32,166 bases of DNA from Candidatus Zixiibacteriota bacterium (lineage in GTDB: Bacteria; Zixibacteria; MSB-5A5; GN15; FEB-12). How positions within the stretch are numbered: position 1 is the stretch's first letter; each line of letters starts with the position of its first letter. The position numbers were made by a program, and so were the translations under genes. Location: contig JAGGTI010000079.1 of the NCBI GenBank assembly GCA_021163775.1, positions 1 through 32,166 of the forward strand. The letters run 5' to 3'. Shown in pieces: positions 2,875 through 29,123 of this stretch. The notes beneath the pieces are model-generated. The model searched no databases, had not been told where the DNA came from, and worked only from the letters and a program-made list of their open reading frames with translations.

Positions 2875-4134
2875 ATGTTTAAGGGTAGACCAGGGAGAGT
2901 ATCCGAACTGTACGTGGGCCGCTCCACCATTCTCAAAGTGTTCCTGATCGGCGGTGTGCTGGTCATCTCGGCGATGTTTATCTGGTACACGTTTGATATT
3001 ATCGATCAACTCCAAAACGATACGCGTACCCAGGTCGATAAGTATGTTCGTCTCTGGCAACTTGCGGCCAACCTGCCAACTTCGGGTGATGAACAACAGT
3101 GTCTATTCTTTATTTTTGATGAAATTATTGTCAAAGCCCAGTTTCCAATCGTAGTTCTCGATCATGACCACGTGCCAGTTTCGTGGCGCAACATCTCTGA
3201 TATCCCTTCCGAAGATACGACCCAGGCGGCGTTCGAACAATTGCGTGAAGTGGCCGAGGGTATGTACCGCCAGAATGGTGAGTATCCGCTCTATTTCGGC
3301 GAGACCAATGTCAACTATCTGCGGTACGGCGATTCGGAGCTAATCAACCAACTCAGAGTTGTGCCGTTTGTAGCGGTCGGTATTGTCCTGGCTTTTATGA
3401 TTGTGGCGATTATCGGTTTCCAGAATATTCGACGCTCCGAGGAACGTCACATATGGGTCGGTATGGCCAAGGAAACGGCGCATCAGTTAGGTACTCCTCT
3501 CTCATCATTGTTAGGCTGGTTGGAACTGATTGACAAACCGAATCGACAGCAGTTAAGCAACAGCGAATTGGAGCAACTGCTGGATCAAACCACCATTTAT
3601 ATGAAGACCGATGTTGAACGCCTGCAACAGGTAGCCAACCGATTCGGTCAGATCGGCTCGGTTCCGGAGATTGAGGAGTGTGACCTGAATGCGCTGGTGG
3701 ACGAGGTCGTGCAATACTATATGATTCGACTTCCGTTTGAGGGTAAAGGGGCGCAAATAAAAGTATCGACCGGCGATATCCCCCCGGTGCGCCTTAATCG
3801 GGAACTATTCGGCTGGGTGTTGGAGAACCTGATTAAAAATTCACTCCAGGCGGTAGATCCAAAGAGCGGAATCATTACTCTGGTTACTAGCGTTGCTGAT
3901 GATCGCAAGAATGTCGTACTTGATGTCATTGACAACGGGAACGGTATCCCGGCTGGTGCCGCACGCAAGCTGTTCCGTCCCGGATTTACTACTAAGAAAC
4001 GTGGCTGGGGTATGGGGCTGACATTGGTCAAAAGGATCGTGGAAGAGTACCATGTCGGCCGGATCATATTGATGACTTCACGACCGGGCGAAACTATCTT
4101 TCACATAACTCTGCCAATCTCCGGTGGAAACTAA
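2875..4134 (+). CDS. Membrane sensor histidine kinase, partner candidate for PorX
   Basis: This is a predicted inner-membrane two-component kinase of 419 aa. The track ORF is longer, but its first 28 residues overlap serS; the ATG at 2875, preceded by AGGTGA, gives MFKGRPGRVS. One membrane helix lies at about residues 17-40 (VFLIGGVLVISAMFIW) and another at about 162-183, flanking an extracytoplasmic segment of roughly 120 aa. The H-box ETAHQLGTPLSSL places the phospho-accepting His at 203. The ATPase domain has the N-box NLIKNSLQA, DNGNGIP, FTTKKRGWGMGL and a short C-terminus. It lies 5 bp after serS and 9 bp before porX, so the two signalling genes are co-transcribed. By analogy with Bacteroidota PorY-PorX it is a likely PorX kinase, though partner choice is inferred from position only. 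Confidence 0.88.
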   Translation: MFKGRPGRVSELYVGRSTILKVFLIGGVLVISAMFIWYTFDIIDQLQNDTRTQVDKYVRLWQLAANLPTSGDEQQCLFFIFDEIIVKAQFPIVVLDHDHVPVSWRNISDIPSEDTTQAAFEQLREVAEGMYRQNGEYPLYFGETNVNYLRYGDSELINQLRVVPFVAVGIVLAFMIVAIIGFQNIRRSEERHIWVGMAKETAHQLGTPLSSLLGWLELIDKPNRQQLSNSELEQLLDQTTIYMKTDVERLQQVANRFGQIGSVPEIEECDLNALVDEVVQYYMIRLPFEGKGAQIKVSTGDIPPVRLNRELFGWVLENLIKNSLQAVDPKSGIITLVTSVADDRKNVVLDVIDNGNGIPAGAARKLFRPGFTTKKRGWGMGLTLVKRIVEEYHVGRIILMTSRPGETIFHITLPISGGN

Positions 4135-4143
4135 CAGGATGAT

Positions 4144-5700
4144 ATGAACAAAACTGACGACAAGAAGCGTATTCTCTGGATTGATGATGAAATCGATTCA
4201 CTCAAATCGCATTTCCTTTTTCTCGAGAGCAAAGGATTTGTGCTTACTGGCGCTATGTCCGGCGATGACGGCATTGCTCTGGTGCAACAGCAGAATTTTG
4301 ATGTAGTCCTGCTTGATGAAATGATGCCGGGCAAGGACGGTCTGACAACTCTGGAAGAGATCAAGAATATCCGACCACATCTGCCGGTTGTGATGGTGAC
4401 TAAATCTGAAGAAGAGTCACTCATGGATGATGCGATTGGTCAGAAGATCGATGACTATCTGGTTAAGCCGGTGGTGCCATCGCAGATTCTGCTGGTTATT
4501 AAAAGACTTCTCGATTCGAGGCGCATCATTGGGTCGTCATCAATGAAACGATATATCACCGAGACTAACCGGTTTAGGAATGATCTGTATGGCGTGATTT
4601 CCCCCGAGACGTGGTACGAAGCGGCCCGTATTGCTTCCGAGTGGAACCTGGAACTCGACGAGAGCAACGACAGCGGTCTGCAAGATATACATGTCGGCAC
4701 TAAAAATGAGTGGAACAACGAGTTTACCAAATATATACTGAAGAACTACCAACGTTGGATGACTGACGATGAACGCCCGATCCTCTCTCCCGATGTGACC
4801 GCGCAGTACGTTGTGCCCTTGCTCAAGGAACAGCGGAAGGTGCTCTATATTGTGGTCGACTGTCTGCGTCTCGACCAATGGATGCTGGTGGAGCCGTTAG
4901 TGGCTGAGTTCTTCAATGTTGAACGTCACTATTATACATCGATTCTTCCCAGTGCTACACCATTCGCACGCAACGCGTTGTTTGCGGGGATCTTCCCTGA
5001 TGAGATTCACAAGTTGTATCCCGATACATATGAAGGCAATGAAGGTTCGCTCAATCGGCACGAAGATCGCTTGTTGCTGGACAACCTTGCCCGGCATGGC
5101 GTGCGACTGGATAAAATGGCACGGTTCTTCAAAATTAACGACAACACACAAGGCGAGGAGCTGGCCCGCAAAGTATCCGACCTGTATGGGTATCAACTGG
5201 TCACGATAGTATTCAATTTTCTCGATATACTCGCACATGGTCGCTCAAGCAATGTTATTCTCAAGGAGATCGCCGGGTCGGAATCCGCTTTCCGATCACT
5301 GATGAAAACCTGGTTCACCTATTCGCCCCTGTTTACGATTCTCAAAGCGTTCGCCGAACGTGATTTTACGGTTGTGGTGACTACGGATCATGGTTCAGTG
5401 CTTTGTCAACGAGGCACGATGGCTCACGGTCGCCGGACGACATCGACCAATCTGCGCTACAAATATGGTGATAATCTCAAGGGTGATGAGAAAGAGGCTC
5501 TGATTATCAAGAAACCGGAAGAGTGGCGGCTTCCGTCGTTTACTCTCAGTACCAGTTATCTGATCGCTCGGGAAGATATGTACTTTGTGTACCCCAACAA
5601 CTACAACGAAATGGTCCGGCGTTTTCAGAATTCTTTCCAGCACGGTGGTATTTCGCTGGAAGAGATGATAGTCCCGGTTACAATTCTCAATCCCAAGTAA
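4144..5700 (+). CDS. porX: PorX-type response regulator with PglZ domain
   Basis: The N-terminal receiver domain (about residues 8-125) has the acidic pair in LWIDDE, the phospho-acceptor Asp58 in VVLLDEMMPG and a Lys in LVKPV. A helical linker leads to a PglZ domain of the alkaline-phosphatase superfamily (about 230-515). Likely metal and nucleophile residues are present: Asp239 in YIVVDCLRLD, Thr272 in SATPFAR, Asp415-His416 in TTDHG and the later AHGRR. In Bacteroidota, PorX of this architecture works with PorY to control the type IX secretion system and has been shown to act as a phosphodiesterase. At 518 aa the length is typical. The upstream kinase gene is 9 bp away and tsaE begins 4 bp downstream. 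No type IX secretion gene is visible here, so the regulated process is unknown. Confidence 0.9.
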   Translation: MNKTDDKKRILWIDDEIDSLKSHFLFLESKGFVLTGAMSGDDGIALVQQQNFDVVLLDEMMPGKDGLTTLEEIKNIRPHLPVVMVTKSEEESLMDDAIGQKIDDYLVKPVVPSQILLVIKRLLDSRRIIGSSSMKRYITETNRFRNDLYGVISPETWYEAARIASEWNLELDESNDSGLQDIHVGTKNEWNNEFTKYILKNYQRWMTDDERPILSPDVTAQYVVPLLKEQRKVLYIVVDCLRLDQWMLVEPLVAEFFNVERHYYTSILPSATPFARNALFAGIFPDEIHKLYPDTYEGNEGSLNRHEDRLLLDNLARHGVRLDKMARFFKINDNTQGEELARKVSDLYGYQLVTIVFNFLDILAHGRSSNVILKEIAGSESAFRSLMKTWFTYSPLFTILKAFAERDFTVVVTTDHGSVLCQRGTMAHGRRTTSTNLRYKYGDNLKGDEKEALIIKKPEEWRLPSFTLSTSYLIAREDMYFVYPNNYNEMVRRFQNSFQHGGISLEEMIVPVTILNPK

Positions 5701-5704
5701 TTCG

Positions 5705-6136
5705 ATGAAAGTTCTGAGTATTACTTCACACAACGAAGACCAGACTGTGGCATTGGCTACCAAACTTGCGGCGTCATTTGTCGATGGTGATGTCATGATT
5801 CTCACCGGAGAACTCGGCTCCGGCAAGACGACTTTTGTGCGTGCGCTTGCTATGGCTCGTGGTGTTGATGAAGATCAAATCAATTCGCCGTCGTACACTT
5901 TTGTCAATGAATACCCCAGCGACCCGCCGCTGTTCCATTTTGATTTGTACCGATTGAGCGATGTTTCCGAATTGACCGAGATTGGTTGGGAGGAGTATCT
6001 CGCGCGTCGCGGTATAGTGGTTGTGGAATGGGGTGATCGGGCCGGGGAAATGTTGCCGGATCGCTACTACCTGGCCGAATTCAAAATTATCGATGATCAA
6101 CAAAGACAGATAGAACTCTCGTTGGTGCAACCATGA
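5705..6136 (+). CDS. tsaE: tRNA t6A threonylcarbamoylation ATPase TsaE
   Basis: This small ATPase works with TsaB and TsaD to transfer threonylcarbamoyl to A37 of ANN-decoding tRNAs. The Walker A motif GELGSGKTT is at residues 35-43, followed by the family motifs SPSYTFVNEY, FHFDLYRL and VVVEWGDRA. At 143 aa it is full length. The last 4 bp overlap the start of tsaB, a standard coupled arrangement. Confidence 0.95.
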   Translation: MKVLSITSHNEDQTVALATKLAASFVDGDVMILTGELGSGKTTFVRALAMARGVDEDQINSPSYTFVNEYPSDPPLFHFDLYRLSDVSELTEIGWEEYLARRGIVVVEWGDRAGEMLPDRYYLAEFKIIDDQQRQIELSLVQP

Positions 6137-6822
6137 ACCGGATCGAATACGACAATGTCCTGGCAATTGACACTGCCACTCGAAAACTGAACCTGGCTGT
6201 CCGTTTTGGCGGTGATCGTCTGGTGAAATCGAGTGAAACGGTGGAGAAAACACACGGTCAAATCATCATGAAGAAAATCTCCGACCTGTTTGACTCGGCC
6301 GGTGGTTCGGTGAATGAATTGCAGGCAGTGGTGGTGGGTACAGGTCCCGGATCTTTCACTGGTTTGCGGATCGGTCTCGCCGCCGCCAAAGGGATTGCGG
6401 TTGCTCGCGATCTTCCTGTTGTGGGTGTTGGTGTGTTCGACGTAGCCGCGATATGCCTTCCCGCGGCTATTCATGCCTGGGTGCTGGTGCCGTCACGACG
6501 AGGCGAGTACTATGCTGGCAAGGTCGCCGCCGGGTCTCTCAACGCCGATAGTGTGCGAGTGATTGCTGAAGAAGAACTGTCAAGTCTGATTGGCTCTGAT
6601 CCGGTGTATGGAATTGATTTCAACCCAACCGAGACGCTGGCGTCTCTGATGTCAAACCTGACCGGCGAGCAACTGGTGTACGATGCTTCAGACATGCTTC
6701 AAGTTGGGCTGAGTCGATTGCAAGAATACGGTCCAACGAATCTGGCCGAGCTTGAACCGACTTATCTTCAGAAGGCTATTGCCGAAGTTCGGTTTGATCA
6801 GCGGCAGAAAGATTCTAAGTGA
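6133..6822 (+). CDS. tsaB: tRNA t6A threonylcarbamoylation protein TsaB
   Basis: This is the scaffold partner of TsaD in t6A biosynthesis, an inactive member of the ASKHA/TsaD fold. The N-terminus carries VLAIDTATRKLNLAV, then KTHGQIIM and the typical GTGPGSFTGLRIGLAAAKGIA at about residues 74-94. At 229 aa it is full length. It overlaps tsaE by 4 bp and rimI by 4 bp, so the three genes are translationally coupled. Confidence 0.95.
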   Translation: MNRIEYDNVLAIDTATRKLNLAVRFGGDRLVKSSETVEKTHGQIIMKKISDLFDSAGGSVNELQAVVVGTGPGSFTGLRIGLAAAKGIAVARDLPVVGVGVFDVAAICLPAAIHAWVLVPSRRGEYYAGKVAAGSLNADSVRVIAEEELSSLIGSDPVYGIDFNPTETLASLMSNLTGEQLVYDASDMLQVGLSRLQEYGPTNLAELEPTYLQKAIAEVRFDQRQKDSK

Positions 6823-15225: not shown

Positions 15226-15335
15226 GTGGGCGGCAGACGCCCTCGTCTGCCCCAACGATGAATAGTTGTTGAAGTCACCACATTTTGTGGGCGGCAGACG
15301 CCCTCGTCTGCCCCACCGATGAATAATTGTTGAAG
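15226..15335 (-). repeat. Pair of REP-like palindromic repeats (direct, 61-bp period) upstream of RAYT
   Basis: Two 49-bp units (15226-15274 and 15287-15335) differ at only two positions. Each begins with GTGGGC followed by the palindrome GGCAGACG-ccct-CGTCTGCC and ends with CGATGAATA-N-TTGTTGAAG. They lie in the gap between the degenerate-GGDEF gene and the RAYT gene, ending 28 bp before the transposase start. The minus orientation is assigned relative to the copy at 15881. They could also act as transcript-end hairpins for the upstream gene. Confidence 0.9.
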
Positions 15336-15363
15336 CCGACGCATTCAAGCCTCACAATACGGC

Positions 15364-15873
15364 ATGGTTGTAAGAAAGAGATTAGACATTAATGGGCCAG
15401 CCATTGCTTTCATCACTACAACAGTATTTGAGTGGAAACCGGTCCTCACACGGGGGAATGTCTGTCCCATTATCATCGAAGAACTCAATAAGACACGCTC
15501 TCTATTTCGACTGAGTATTATTAGCTATGTGATAATGCCAAGTCATATTCATCTTCTTTTGGGGTTTCCGAATATTGAAGACCTGTCAAAATCTATTCAG
15601 AGTTTCAAAAGCATTTCGTCCCGGCAAGTCAAGCAGTTATCTGTTCCAGAATTAGTAGAGAATGGCTACAAATTATGGAAACCTCGTTTCGACGATCTTA
15701 TTGTTACGTCAGAAAAGCAATTGAAGATTAAGATGGAGTATATTCATAACAATCCGGTTAGGGCAGGTCTGGTGGAGGCCGCTGAAGACTGGCGTTATTC
15801 CAGCGCTGTTGATTGGTTGACTTCAAGTACAGGTTTGATTAAGATCGACAAAGAGTTTCAATGGTTGATTTAG
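15364..15873 (+). mobile_element. REP-associated tyrosine transposase (RAYT, IS200-like Y1/HUH)
   Basis: This 169-aa single-strand DNA transposase carries the HUH motif as MPSHIHLLL (His61, His63) and the catalytic tyrosine in KMEYIHNNPVRAGL (Tyr126). That combination is the hallmark of the TnpA_REP/RAYT branch of the IS200/IS605 transposases. RAYTs act on REP palindromes scattered in the host genome rather than moving as an ordinary insertion sequence. Here the gene is flanked by two palindromes in one orientation upstream (15226-15335) and one in the opposite orientation starting 8 bp after its stop (15881). No strong ribosome binding site is visible before the ATG. The reading frame is intact, so it is probably active or recently so. 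Confidence 0.92.
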
Positions 15874-15911
15874 TAAGAAAGGGGCAGACGAGGGCGTCTG
15901 CCGCCCACAAA
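15861..15911 (+). repeat. Repeat A, copy 1: RAYT 3' end plus REP palindrome
   Basis: This 51-bp stretch includes the last codons and stop of the RAYT gene, then GGGGCAGACGAGGGCGTCTG and CCGCCCACAAA. It is repeated with one mismatch at 17593-17643, directly after the stop of the dockerin-like gene. The palindrome itself (15881-15908) is inverted relative to the pair upstream of the RAYT gene. Confidence 0.93.
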
Positions 15912-16034: not shown

Positions 16035-16089
16035 ACACTTTGACAAGCTTAGCATGACGTCTCGGCAAACGAGGACGTCTGCCGCCCAC
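16035..16089 (+). repeat. Repeat B, copy 1
   Basis: The 55-bp unit ACACTTTGACAAGCTTAGCA... ends in a degenerate REP palindrome and the CCGCCCAC tail. It matches 17644-17698 closely; the left half (GACAAGCT-y-AGCATGACGTCTCGGCA) is nearly identical and the palindrome half differs at several positions. Confidence 0.85.
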
Positions 16090-16185: not shown

Positions 16186-17592
16186 ATGCGTTTTGTATGT
16201 CGATTAATGGGGTGGAGCCTGATCACGCTCCTGTGGACGGCACCTGCCTCGGGTGATCCGGTCGCCGTGGAATGGGACACTATTGCGACGCATCCAAACC
16301 TGTATGATGATCCGGGAGCCGTTGACCGCGAGTCCGTTGGGCTGATTGTGTCCAATCATGGCGAGATGGGTCATGCCGGTTTGGGTGGCGCCAACATGGA
16401 TTTCGTGGCCTCGGGCTTCGAGTGCGGGACCAGGCCCGAAGACGCCGTCTACCTGTATAGCGGATCGCCGTATGTCATCCTGGCCGATGACTCTTACGGT
16501 GCAAATGCCCTGCTTACCTGCTCGTACGGCCAAATTGACGACACCAGACCATACAGTTGGGTTCCCACCGGTGAACCAGGAAGCATCGGGGGAGGCTTCA
16601 CGCCATGTCCCTATCGTCCCGGACCGATAACGCTTGGCAAGTTCCTGAGCAGAAACGGGGCAATTGCGATGGAGAGAACCTATCATCCGCCGCTCTACAG
16701 CGATGGCGCGCGAAACTTCATAATAGTAGAGACCAAGCTCTATTCTGGCGACGGCCAACCGCACAATCATCTCACAGCGGGGAGCGTGATGGACTGGAAT
16801 ATCCCCTCGGATTCTGCCAACATGAACACAAGTGGTGATACATGGGACGGATGGGGTGGTTTTGTGTATATGCAGGGAACAGACACAGCGATGAGCGAAG
16901 CCTGTCAACCAAATGTCGGCCGTTTTGCTGCCGAGGTTTTCGGCGGTGTAGCGACTGTGGCAGAATTTGCTGCTTTTGGCCGATGCGCCAACGGATCCGA
17001 GTATTGGAGTTGCTGGTCAGGGAGTCAGAAACTTCTTCGCGACACGAATCTTGCCCGCGATGGGGTAACTGTGATTGATCCGCCGCAACCTGATGCCAGA
17101 GCCTGGTGGGACGACATAGGGGCAAACCCGGAATTGCACAGTAACACTACGGCGGAGGACCAGGCGATCTGGCTCACCTACATATACAATTACTACCTTG
17201 GTGCCCAGGATACTCTATGGTTCTGGTCAGTACTTGCTGCTGTGCCCGATGGGACGGTCCATGACCTTCAGTCCGTGGTATCCGAGGCTAAGGTGTGGTG
17301 TACAGAGGTGATCCGTGAATGTCAGGCGGACTGCCAATTCTGTCGCACGGGTAATGCCAACGGAATGGGTGGCGATGAGCCAACAATAGGCGACATCAGT
17401 ACACTGATCGACGCCAAGTTTATCACTGGTACCTGTGACGGTATCATCCAGTGCCTAGAGGAAGCTGATGTCAACCAGTCTGGAGGGTCAGGGCCGACCT
17501 GCGATGATATCACGATTAGTGACATTGCGATGCTGATTGATTACCTGTTCATCACCGGTCCGTCACTCGGCCTGCCGCTCTGCAACCATTGA
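16186..17592 (+). CDS. Secreted protein with C-terminal dockerin-like repeats
   Basis: The 468-aa product starts with a signal peptide (MRFVCRLMGWSLITLLWTA, cleaved around residue 23). The central part (about 25-375) is not recognised; it is rich in Trp, Gly and Cys and appears globular. From residue 389 there are two EF-hand/dockerin-type calcium loops of the form GNANG...TIGDISTLIDAKFITG and ADVNQ...TISDIAMLIDYLFITG, with cysteine-containing inserts. Dockerin-like tails of this sort end many exported proteins in FCB-group genomes and may serve in anchoring; a matching cohesin is not seen here. The gene has its own promoter and is bracketed by repeat modules A and B on both sides. Its function is unknown. 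Confidence 0.8.
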   Translation: MRFVCRLMGWSLITLLWTAPASGDPVAVEWDTIATHPNLYDDPGAVDRESVGLIVSNHGEMGHAGLGGANMDFVASGFECGTRPEDAVYLYSGSPYVILADDSYGANALLTCSYGQIDDTRPYSWVPTGEPGSIGGGFTPCPYRPGPITLGKFLSRNGAIAMERTYHPPLYSDGARNFIIVETKLYSGDGQPHNHLTAGSVMDWNIPSDSANMNTSGDTWDGWGGFVYMQGTDTAMSEACQPNVGRFAAEVFGGVATVAEFAAFGRCANGSEYWSCWSGSQKLLRDTNLARDGVTVIDPPQPDARAWWDDIGANPELHSNTTAEDQAIWLTYIYNYYLGAQDTLWFWSVLAAVPDGTVHDLQSVVSEAKVWCTEVIRECQADCQFCRTGNANGMGGDEPTIGDISTLIDAKFITGTCDGIIQCLEEADVNQSGGSGPTCDDITISDIAMLIDYLFITGPSLGLPLCNH

Positions 17593-17698
17593 ATGGCTGA
17601 TTTAGTAAGAAAGGGGCAGACGAGGGCGTCTGCCGCCCACAAAACACTTCGACAAGCTCAGCATGACGTCTCGGCAGATGTGGACATCTGCCGAGCAC
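17593..17698 (+). repeat. Repeat A-B module, copy 2
   Basis: Repeat A (17593-17643, 51 bp with one mismatch to 15861-15911) begins at the base after the dockerin-gene stop and is followed without a gap by repeat B (17644-17698). The last part, CTCGGCAGATGT-gg-ACATCTGCCGAG (17670-17695), is a perfect 12-bp palindrome. It lies 8 bp from the valS stop and could serve as a shared transcription end for the two convergent genes. Confidence 0.92.
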
Positions 17699-21420: not shown

Positions 21421-21482
21421 GTGGGCGGCAGACGTCCCGTCTGCCCCAGGGACTCGTGACACACGGGGACGTACACCACACT
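21421..21482 (-). repeat. Composite REP repeat, inverted orientation
   Basis: GTGGGC and the palindrome GGCAGACGTCCCGTCTGCC are followed by ACTCGTGACACACGGGGACG and TACACCACAC. It is the reverse complement of the composite units at 23051 and 27027. Just before it (21388-21412) is CCCTTCGATGGGCTCAGGGT, related to the left half of repeat B. The 21339-21775 gap otherwise holds one small inverted repeat and no gene I can support. Confidence 0.85.
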
Positions 21483-23050: not shown

Positions 23051-23122
23051 TGTGCGTGGTGTATGCCTCCGTGCGCCACGAGGTTTTGGGGCAGACGAGG
23101 GCGTCTGCCGCCCACAAAATCT
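23051..23122 (+). repeat. Composite REP repeat
   Basis: TGTGCGTGGTGTATGCCTCC...GCCACGAGGTTTTG is followed by the palindrome GGCAGACGAGGGCGTCTGCC and CGCCCACAAAATCT. It is the same 72-bp unit as 27027-27098, with about 9 differences, and it lies between the terminator at 23011 and the end of the amidotransferase gene. Confidence 0.88.
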
Positions 23123-27026: not shown

Positions 27027-27098
27027 TGTGCGTGGTGTACGCCCCCCGTGTGCCACGAGGTTCTGGAGCAGACGAGGGTGTCTGCCACCCACAAAATC
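27027..27098 (+). repeat. Composite REP repeat
   Basis: This is the same 72-bp unit as 23051-23122 (TGTGCGTGGTGTACGCCCCC...GCCACGAGG, then a GCAGACGAGGGTGTCTGC palindrome). It is followed by a partial extra copy of the tail, CTGCCGCCCACGAAAACAC. It separates the polyamine promoter from the barrel-protein promoter in the 26887-27209 gap. Confidence 0.86.
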
Positions 27099-29049: not shown

Positions 29050-29123
29050 GGCGGTGTAGCTCAGTTGGTTAGAGCAGCGGAATCATAATCCGCGTGTCCG
29101 GGGTTCAAGTCCCTGCACCGCTA
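29050..29123 (+). tRNA. tRNA-Met (anticodon CAT, elongator type)
   Basis: The cloverleaf is complete. The acceptor stem GGCGGTG/CACCGCT has one G-T pair at its end, and the D stem is GCTC/GAGC. The anticodon stem GCGGA/TCCGC encloses ATCATAA (anticodon CAT), and the T arm CGGGG-TTCAAGT-CCCTG is followed by discriminator A. No CCA is encoded. The acceptor lacks the 1-72 mismatch and the anticodon stem lacks the three G-C pairs of initiator tRNA. A lysidine-modified tRNA-Ile2 is the only other option. Confidence 0.95.

Follow-up and report, generated by a model that had tools for sequence, protein, structure and literature searches.

A RAYT gene bracketed by inverted REP palindromes in a Candidatus Zixiibacteriota genome

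RAYTs are domesticated transposases that mobilise REPs – the reverse of the original prediction for this DNA, in which RAYTs were said to domesticate REPs – and the way in which they spread REPs is unresolved (PMC8266576). The RAYTs of E. coli, S. maltophilia and Marinomonas recognise REPs in single-stranded DNA by a GTAG-type guide, cleave them with an HUH-Tyr active site and transfer strands (PMC8266576); the same paper has base 4 of the guide pair with the cleavage dinucleotide, GTGG giving CC. REPtrons outside the Gammaproteobacteria have been published, including those of Bacteroidetes and Cyanobacteria (PMC6006769, PMC3733652). The original prediction was right to place this locus in the FCB group, but the pairing that it called less explored there, RAYTs with REP-like repeats, has already been reported in Bacteroidetes (PMC6006769). 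A literature search for Zixibacteria with transposases or palindromic repeats returned nothing relevant, and no earlier report of a RAYT or REP was found for that phylum. The locus described here is of the known RAYT/REP kind, and its guide may be recognised in a variant way.

The closest described systems share much with this locus. RayT of E. coli K-12 (b0228, TnpA-REP group 2, GTAG REPs, structure 4er8) has the same HUH-Y1 fold and W-x-P-R region, inverted REPs around the gene, a hairpin that contains an unpaired irregularity and has its guide on the 5' side, and many dispersed intergenic REP copies. The two proteins are about 21% identical; the one studied here has K106 where E. coli has Q95, and no matching C-terminal tail. 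Its REPs have GTG and a variable base 4 that is predicted to pair, rather than an invariant GTAG, and the predicted bulge is near the foot, not mid-stem. TnpA-REP of subclass 2.4 (GT[AG]G REPs, Cyanobacteria and Bacteroidetes; Quentin et al. 2018, PMC6006769) is also REP-flanked outside the Gammaproteobacteria, with a GTGG-type guide and YIxNNP around the catalytic Tyr. In a comparison of motifs, only the third of the subclass motifs NH[IFV]H, WQ and YIxNNP fits the protein studied here, which has SHIH, WK and YIHNNP; its sister REPtrons have GTGC, GTGA or GTGT, and no REP lies inside the gene. The REPINs of Pseudomonas fluorescens SBW25 (PMC3116915) are likewise dispersed, intergenic, inverted REP doublets, with several RAYT/REP sets per genome, whereas here many single REPs have other tails and the doublets often join two REP types.

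The RAYT gene and its REPs

The window, meaning the whole stretch of 32,166 nucleotides that was analysed, makes up contig C22 of G000, a Ca. Zixiibacteriota MAG of 2.37 Mb that is 77% complete; such incompleteness blurs calls of RAYT presence or absence. The RAYT (TnpA-REP) gene, RAYT-A, extends from an ATG at 15364 to a TAG at 15873 on the forward strand and encodes 169 amino acids with no internal stop. As originally predicted, the gene is intact, with His-Ile-His at 61–63 and Tyr126 in place; a W105-K106-P-R motif is also present. RAYT-A is an HUH-Y1 transposase of the REP subfamily: it scores 107.8 bits with NCBIfam model NF047646, REP_Tyr_transpos (cut-off 80), 43.7 bits with Pfam Y1_Tnp (cut-off 23) and 27.8 bits, under the cut-off of 55, with the IS200 model NF033573. 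The best PDB match by Foldseek to its AlphaFold2 model (pLDDT 93.2) is E. coli TnpA-REP 4er8 (TM 0.70), followed by IS608 and ISDra2.

Among named genomes, only those of Ca. Zixiibacteriota and one 'FCB group bacterium' have relatives of RAYT-A that are at least 45% identical to it, and RAYTs of this type form a clade of 40 entries, nearly all Zixibacteria (support 100/94). Six Y1_Tnp genes of five kinds are encoded in G000. Compared with its orthologue in G017, RAYT-A has a dN/dS of about 0.08, with dS near saturation, and is under purifying selection. This selection and the single intact copy in G000 would fit a gene inherited vertically, as housekeeping genes are, yet a 3' fragment with a REP is present on contig C21, the gene is missing in the same-genus genome G001, and it is at another locus in G017.

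The REP type at this locus, REP-A, is 5'-GTGGGC-GGCAGACG-N4-CGTCTGCC-CC, with a CCCT loop and, at the hairpin foot, GTGG, which is of the GT[AG]G form. The copies in the window, and those of other REPs, are:

15226..15253, + strand: REP-A copy 1; GTG guide, predicted bulged foot, 8-bp stem, loop CCCT; palindrome 15232-15251
15287..15314, + strand: REP-A copy 2; 61-nt direct repeat with copy 1 at 89% identity (family D3); palindrome 15293-15312
15881..15908, - strand: REP-A copy 3; inverted, right after the RAYT stop codon; palindrome 15883-15902
16064..16089, - strand: REP-A copy with one stem mismatch
17589..17640, - strand: REP-A copy with ca. 25 nt of the RAYT 3' end still attached; 96% identity over 55 nt to 15857-15911
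17672..17698, - strand: REP-B copy, GTGCTC-GGCAGATG-TCCA..., from the family whose copies flank a second RAYT, on contig C61
21421..21481, + strand (the end was located by manual counting in the sequence): REPIN of REP-A with a 3-nt loop and an inverted second REP of GTGTGGTGTACG type
23052..23115, - strand: REPIN of REP-A and an inverted second REP (families D1, D8); in a tail cluster of 9 copies
27028..27092, - strand: REPIN of a diverged REP-A and an inverted second REP (families D1, D8)

The predicted arrangement of two upstream palindromes in one orientation and one downstream in the other is present, while the distance from the stop codon, given as 8 bp, is 9 nt, and falls to 7 nt when the palindrome is taken to include its outer GG. 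The further palindromes that had been reported in the window also exist, except that the one at 17673 belongs to REP-B, with its GGCAGATG stem; another REP-A, at 21425, would escape the N4 pattern through its 3-nt loop. Eight palindromes with at most 3 mismatches are found in the window, against 0.06 expected, which excludes chance, and all nine window REPs are intergenic though 82% of the window is coding.

Other features of the window were also noted. A repeat, CACTTYGACAAGCTYAGCATGACGT, at 16036-16060 and 17645-17669 directly adjoins REP-A or REP-B copies (0 expected after shuffling), forming a mosaic of several REP-like families. An Rfam search of the window found no known structured RNA except a tRNA at 29050. 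A canonical intrinsic terminator was considered for the REP hairpin and rejected, neither strand having a T-run after it. The last ca. 75 residues of the ORF at 16186-17592 (window 17350-17583) are dockerin-like (DxNxSG...) and recur more than 20 times in G001; Pfam gave no match to the whole protein. At 4144-5700 a PglZ domain is fused to a response regulator.

REP families, cognate pairing and copy number

The oriented motif GTGGGCGGCAGACG-N4-CGTCTGCC, with up to 3 mismatches, is listed at 63 places in G000 (about 62 distinct), while the reversed control has none; the cognate REP is thus dispersed in many copies. REP-B (GTGCCC GGCAGATG TCCA CATCTGCC G) is listed at 88 places (about 79 distinct; control 0). 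The RAYT that it flanks on C61, RAYT-B (L005/L229), has Y-L-H at the catalytic site and not H-x-H, so the commonest REP family in G000 may have a dead RAYT; a RAYT of another genome (L015) has H-L-R. A BIME-like tandem array of REP-A units, spaced about 214 bp apart, is present on contig C9 (L232, 45275-45865).

A third RAYT type, with GGTAGCCCACAGC...GCTACC ends, occurs twice on contig C86 (L228), at about 4095-4676 and 5933-6514. The two copies are 97% identical over about 600 bp (593/610) and their flanks are unrelated on both sides, as if the whole REPtron had transposed, with an assembly artefact as the alternative. RAYT genes are described in published work as lacking mobility.

RAYTs of the clade and their REPs vary together. 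Twenty-nine clade members have a REP both upstream and downstream; within these flanking pairs 5% of guide-plus-stem positions differ, compared to 19% between loci (p=1e-4). The distances between REPs are correlated with those between their RAYTs (Mantel r=0.37, p=7e-4, n=38). The stem is unchanged in orthologues 74-76% identical to RAYT-A; at 59-61% identity it is GGCAGGTG or GGCAGGCG, and in remoter orthologues GGCAGATG, GGCAGACC or GGCGTACC. REP-A itself, in the same inverted arrangement, flanks the three closest orthologues, in G017, G049 and G011. The loops of dispersed copies match those of the resident RAYT's REPs – CCCT in G000, CCCT or CCCC in G017, TCCT in G050.

Some REPINs combine unlike REPs. 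Four in G050 (L238, L246, L254, L262) and one in G001 (L237) start with a GGCAGACG-TCCT REP and continue to an inverted GGCAGACC-TCCC, and the RAYT of G050 is flanked by exactly those two. Distant RAYTs (L094-L166; Pseudomonas, Cyanobacteria, Brocadia, Sulfurovum and others) have near-identical CGTTCCCA..N..TGGGAACG flanking palindromes, a repeat type strikingly conserved across phyla.

The strict palindrome was counted, and RAYTs were sought, in 118 relatives, and the two were compared in 81 genomes of the order. Genomes with their own RAYT flanked by the GGCAGACG stem (n=9) have a median of 25 copies, while those without such a RAYT (n=59) have a median of 1 (p=3.6e-4); the association remains in genomes at least 90% complete (p=0.0017) and within the family (p=5.6e-4). 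In the 12 genomes with RAYTs flanked by other stems there is no excess of copies (p=0.35). The proposed dependence of copy number on the RAYT is therefore seen for RAYTs with the same stem but not as strict coupling – 14 genomes without a RAYT of this clade still have at least 10 copies each, so these REPs either outlived their RAYTs or came with another one. Among these 14 is G001, 100% complete, with 30 copies, mostly with a TCCT loop.

Hairpin foot and copy boundaries

Only GTG, at guide bases 1–3, is constant among REPs of the clade (61 of 67). In 47 of 57 distinct REPs, compared to 19.9 in shuffles, the bases after it can pair with those that directly follow the stem on its 3' side. When every distinct foot combination is given a single count, 19 of 28 are paired, against 7.1 expected (p=1e-4). 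The pairing either has a one-base bulge (GG.C/CC, CG.C/CG, AG.C/CT) or is full (GCT/AGC, GTT/AAC). Covariation of this kind speaks for a folded single strand that is functional; the fold of REP-A as single-stranded DNA is -11 kcal/mol (z -4.1). GTG would then be the unpaired guide, the later bases would not be free guide, and the stem would usually have a one-base bulge. Pairing of guide base 4 with the cleavage dinucleotide was also considered for the 3' CC; an antiparallel foot helix fits better, because of the covarying base order (M1 = C, M2 = complement of N4). Guide base 4 varies with residue 106 – Lys occurs with G in 29 cases and C in 4, Met with G in 4 and C in 8 (Fisher p=7e-4, ignoring phylogeny) – which is suggestive of a link between K106/M106 and that base.

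REP-A copies start sharply at the TTTY/GTGGGC junction, with TTTY at -4..-1 (binomial p from 3e-5 to 2e-11 per position) and background composition beyond -5. Other genomes show this signal in weaker form. At the other end, the 3' tail is common to another copy in 23 of 34 cases, while the 5' flank is in just 6 of 34, these counts resting on about 34 of some 62 REP-A sites. Nine copies end in an inverted second REP, in the manner of REPINs, and the window has three REP doublets, but other tails lack a second REP. The tail of the RAYT's upstream REP recurs at two other sites (L065, L066). That of its downstream REP is the 3' end of the RAYT gene, and recurs as 146 nt at 92% identity on C21 (L048) and about 25 nt at 17589, a copy also recovered when the whole RAYT/REP unit was aligned. 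The boundaries suggest that the 5' cut is fixed and that the 3' cut varies.

G001 has an empty site. There a response regulator, a GGDEF-like ORF and valS form a block that is syntenic with the window (DNA identity about 72%) and has neither RAYT nor REP in the interval from the ORF to valS. In G017 the regulator and ORF are present with no RAYT in the next 637 bp, and RAYT-A is on another contig. The neighbourhood differences in G017 and G049 were given no strong weight for mobility, since these genomes are only about 71% identical in DNA. Common 3' tails, dispersed copies and the empty site bear out the prediction that the system was active in the past.

Explanations and significance

The locus is very probably a REPtron – a RAYT gene bracketed by inverted cognate REPs, whose product would mobilise REPs as single-strand units. 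The chemistry of the studied RAYTs is the best explanation because of the homology and the cognate evidence. Where DNA is single-stranded, as at a replication fork, a REP would form a hairpin in which GTG stays unpaired as the 5' guide, the next bases make a short foot helix, in most cases with one base bulged out, and a stem of 8 bp follows. The RAYT would bind this hairpin and cut by means of Tyr126 and a metal bound by the two HUH histidines. It would then join the REP and some 3' DNA to intergenic sites next to T-rich tetranucleotides. This cleavage and strand transfer would give rise to the dispersed REPs and REPINs, and REPs may be moving at present. Several points count against the REPtron reading: the RAYT-less genomes with at least 10 copies, where REPs persist or move without this RAYT, the incompleteness of the MAGs, the single copy of RAYT-A in G000, the weaker TTTY elsewhere and the number of sites behind the flank counts.

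A more specific proposal is tentative and somewhat doubtful: RAYTs of the Zixibacteria clade may read a minimal GTG and a bulged, covarying foot, with no fixed GTAG or GTGG, and may mobilise REPs from one end, with the 5' cut fixed at TTTY/GTG and a variable 3' cut leaving tails that include RAYT pieces.

It is unlikely that the REPs are now chiefly host elements under selection, as mRNA 3'-end or nucleoid-protein sites, and that the RAYT no longer mobilises them but serves as a housekeeping nuclease on single strands. Such roles have been described for REPs elsewhere (PMC6006769, PMC8266576), the window REPs are intergenic, several of them between convergent genes, and REP families outlast their RAYT in G001 and G020. 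However, site conservation is lacking: of the window REP-A sites in the block syntenic with G001, every one examined is missing from that genome. The families of 3' tails indicate copying, and the REPs are not canonical intrinsic terminators.

With five RAYT types in G000 and an incomplete assembly, REP-A could have been moved mainly in trans by another RAYT – RAYT-B, or one outside the assembly – the REPs at this gene being bystanders. This is very improbable, as RAYT-B has a different flanking REP and lacks the first His of its HUH pair, and REP-A accompanies RAYT-A orthologues in three other genomes.

An ordinary IS200/IS605 insertion sequence or its remnant, with the palindromes as leftover IS ends, can be dismissed as highly improbable: IS608 and ISDra2 share the HUH-Y1 fold, catalytic core and hairpin-plus-guide logic and are in the same Foldseek list, and the gene's 3' fragment with a REP is on C21, but RAYT-A fails the IS200 cut-off and passes that of the REP model, no tnpB was seen beside it, its flanking hairpins are inverted copies and not two direct-oriented ends, and G000 has one full RAYT-A, not several copies of a whole element, against some 62 dispersed REPs.

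The REPtron reading extends REPtrons to the phylum Zixibacteria. Some 40 RAYT/REP pairs, often several per genome, have natural variation in stems, guides and feet, and would provide ready-made swaps for studying how residues read bases. Where cutting would take place can be predicted concretely from the 5' boundary, which is fixed, and the 3' boundary, which varies.
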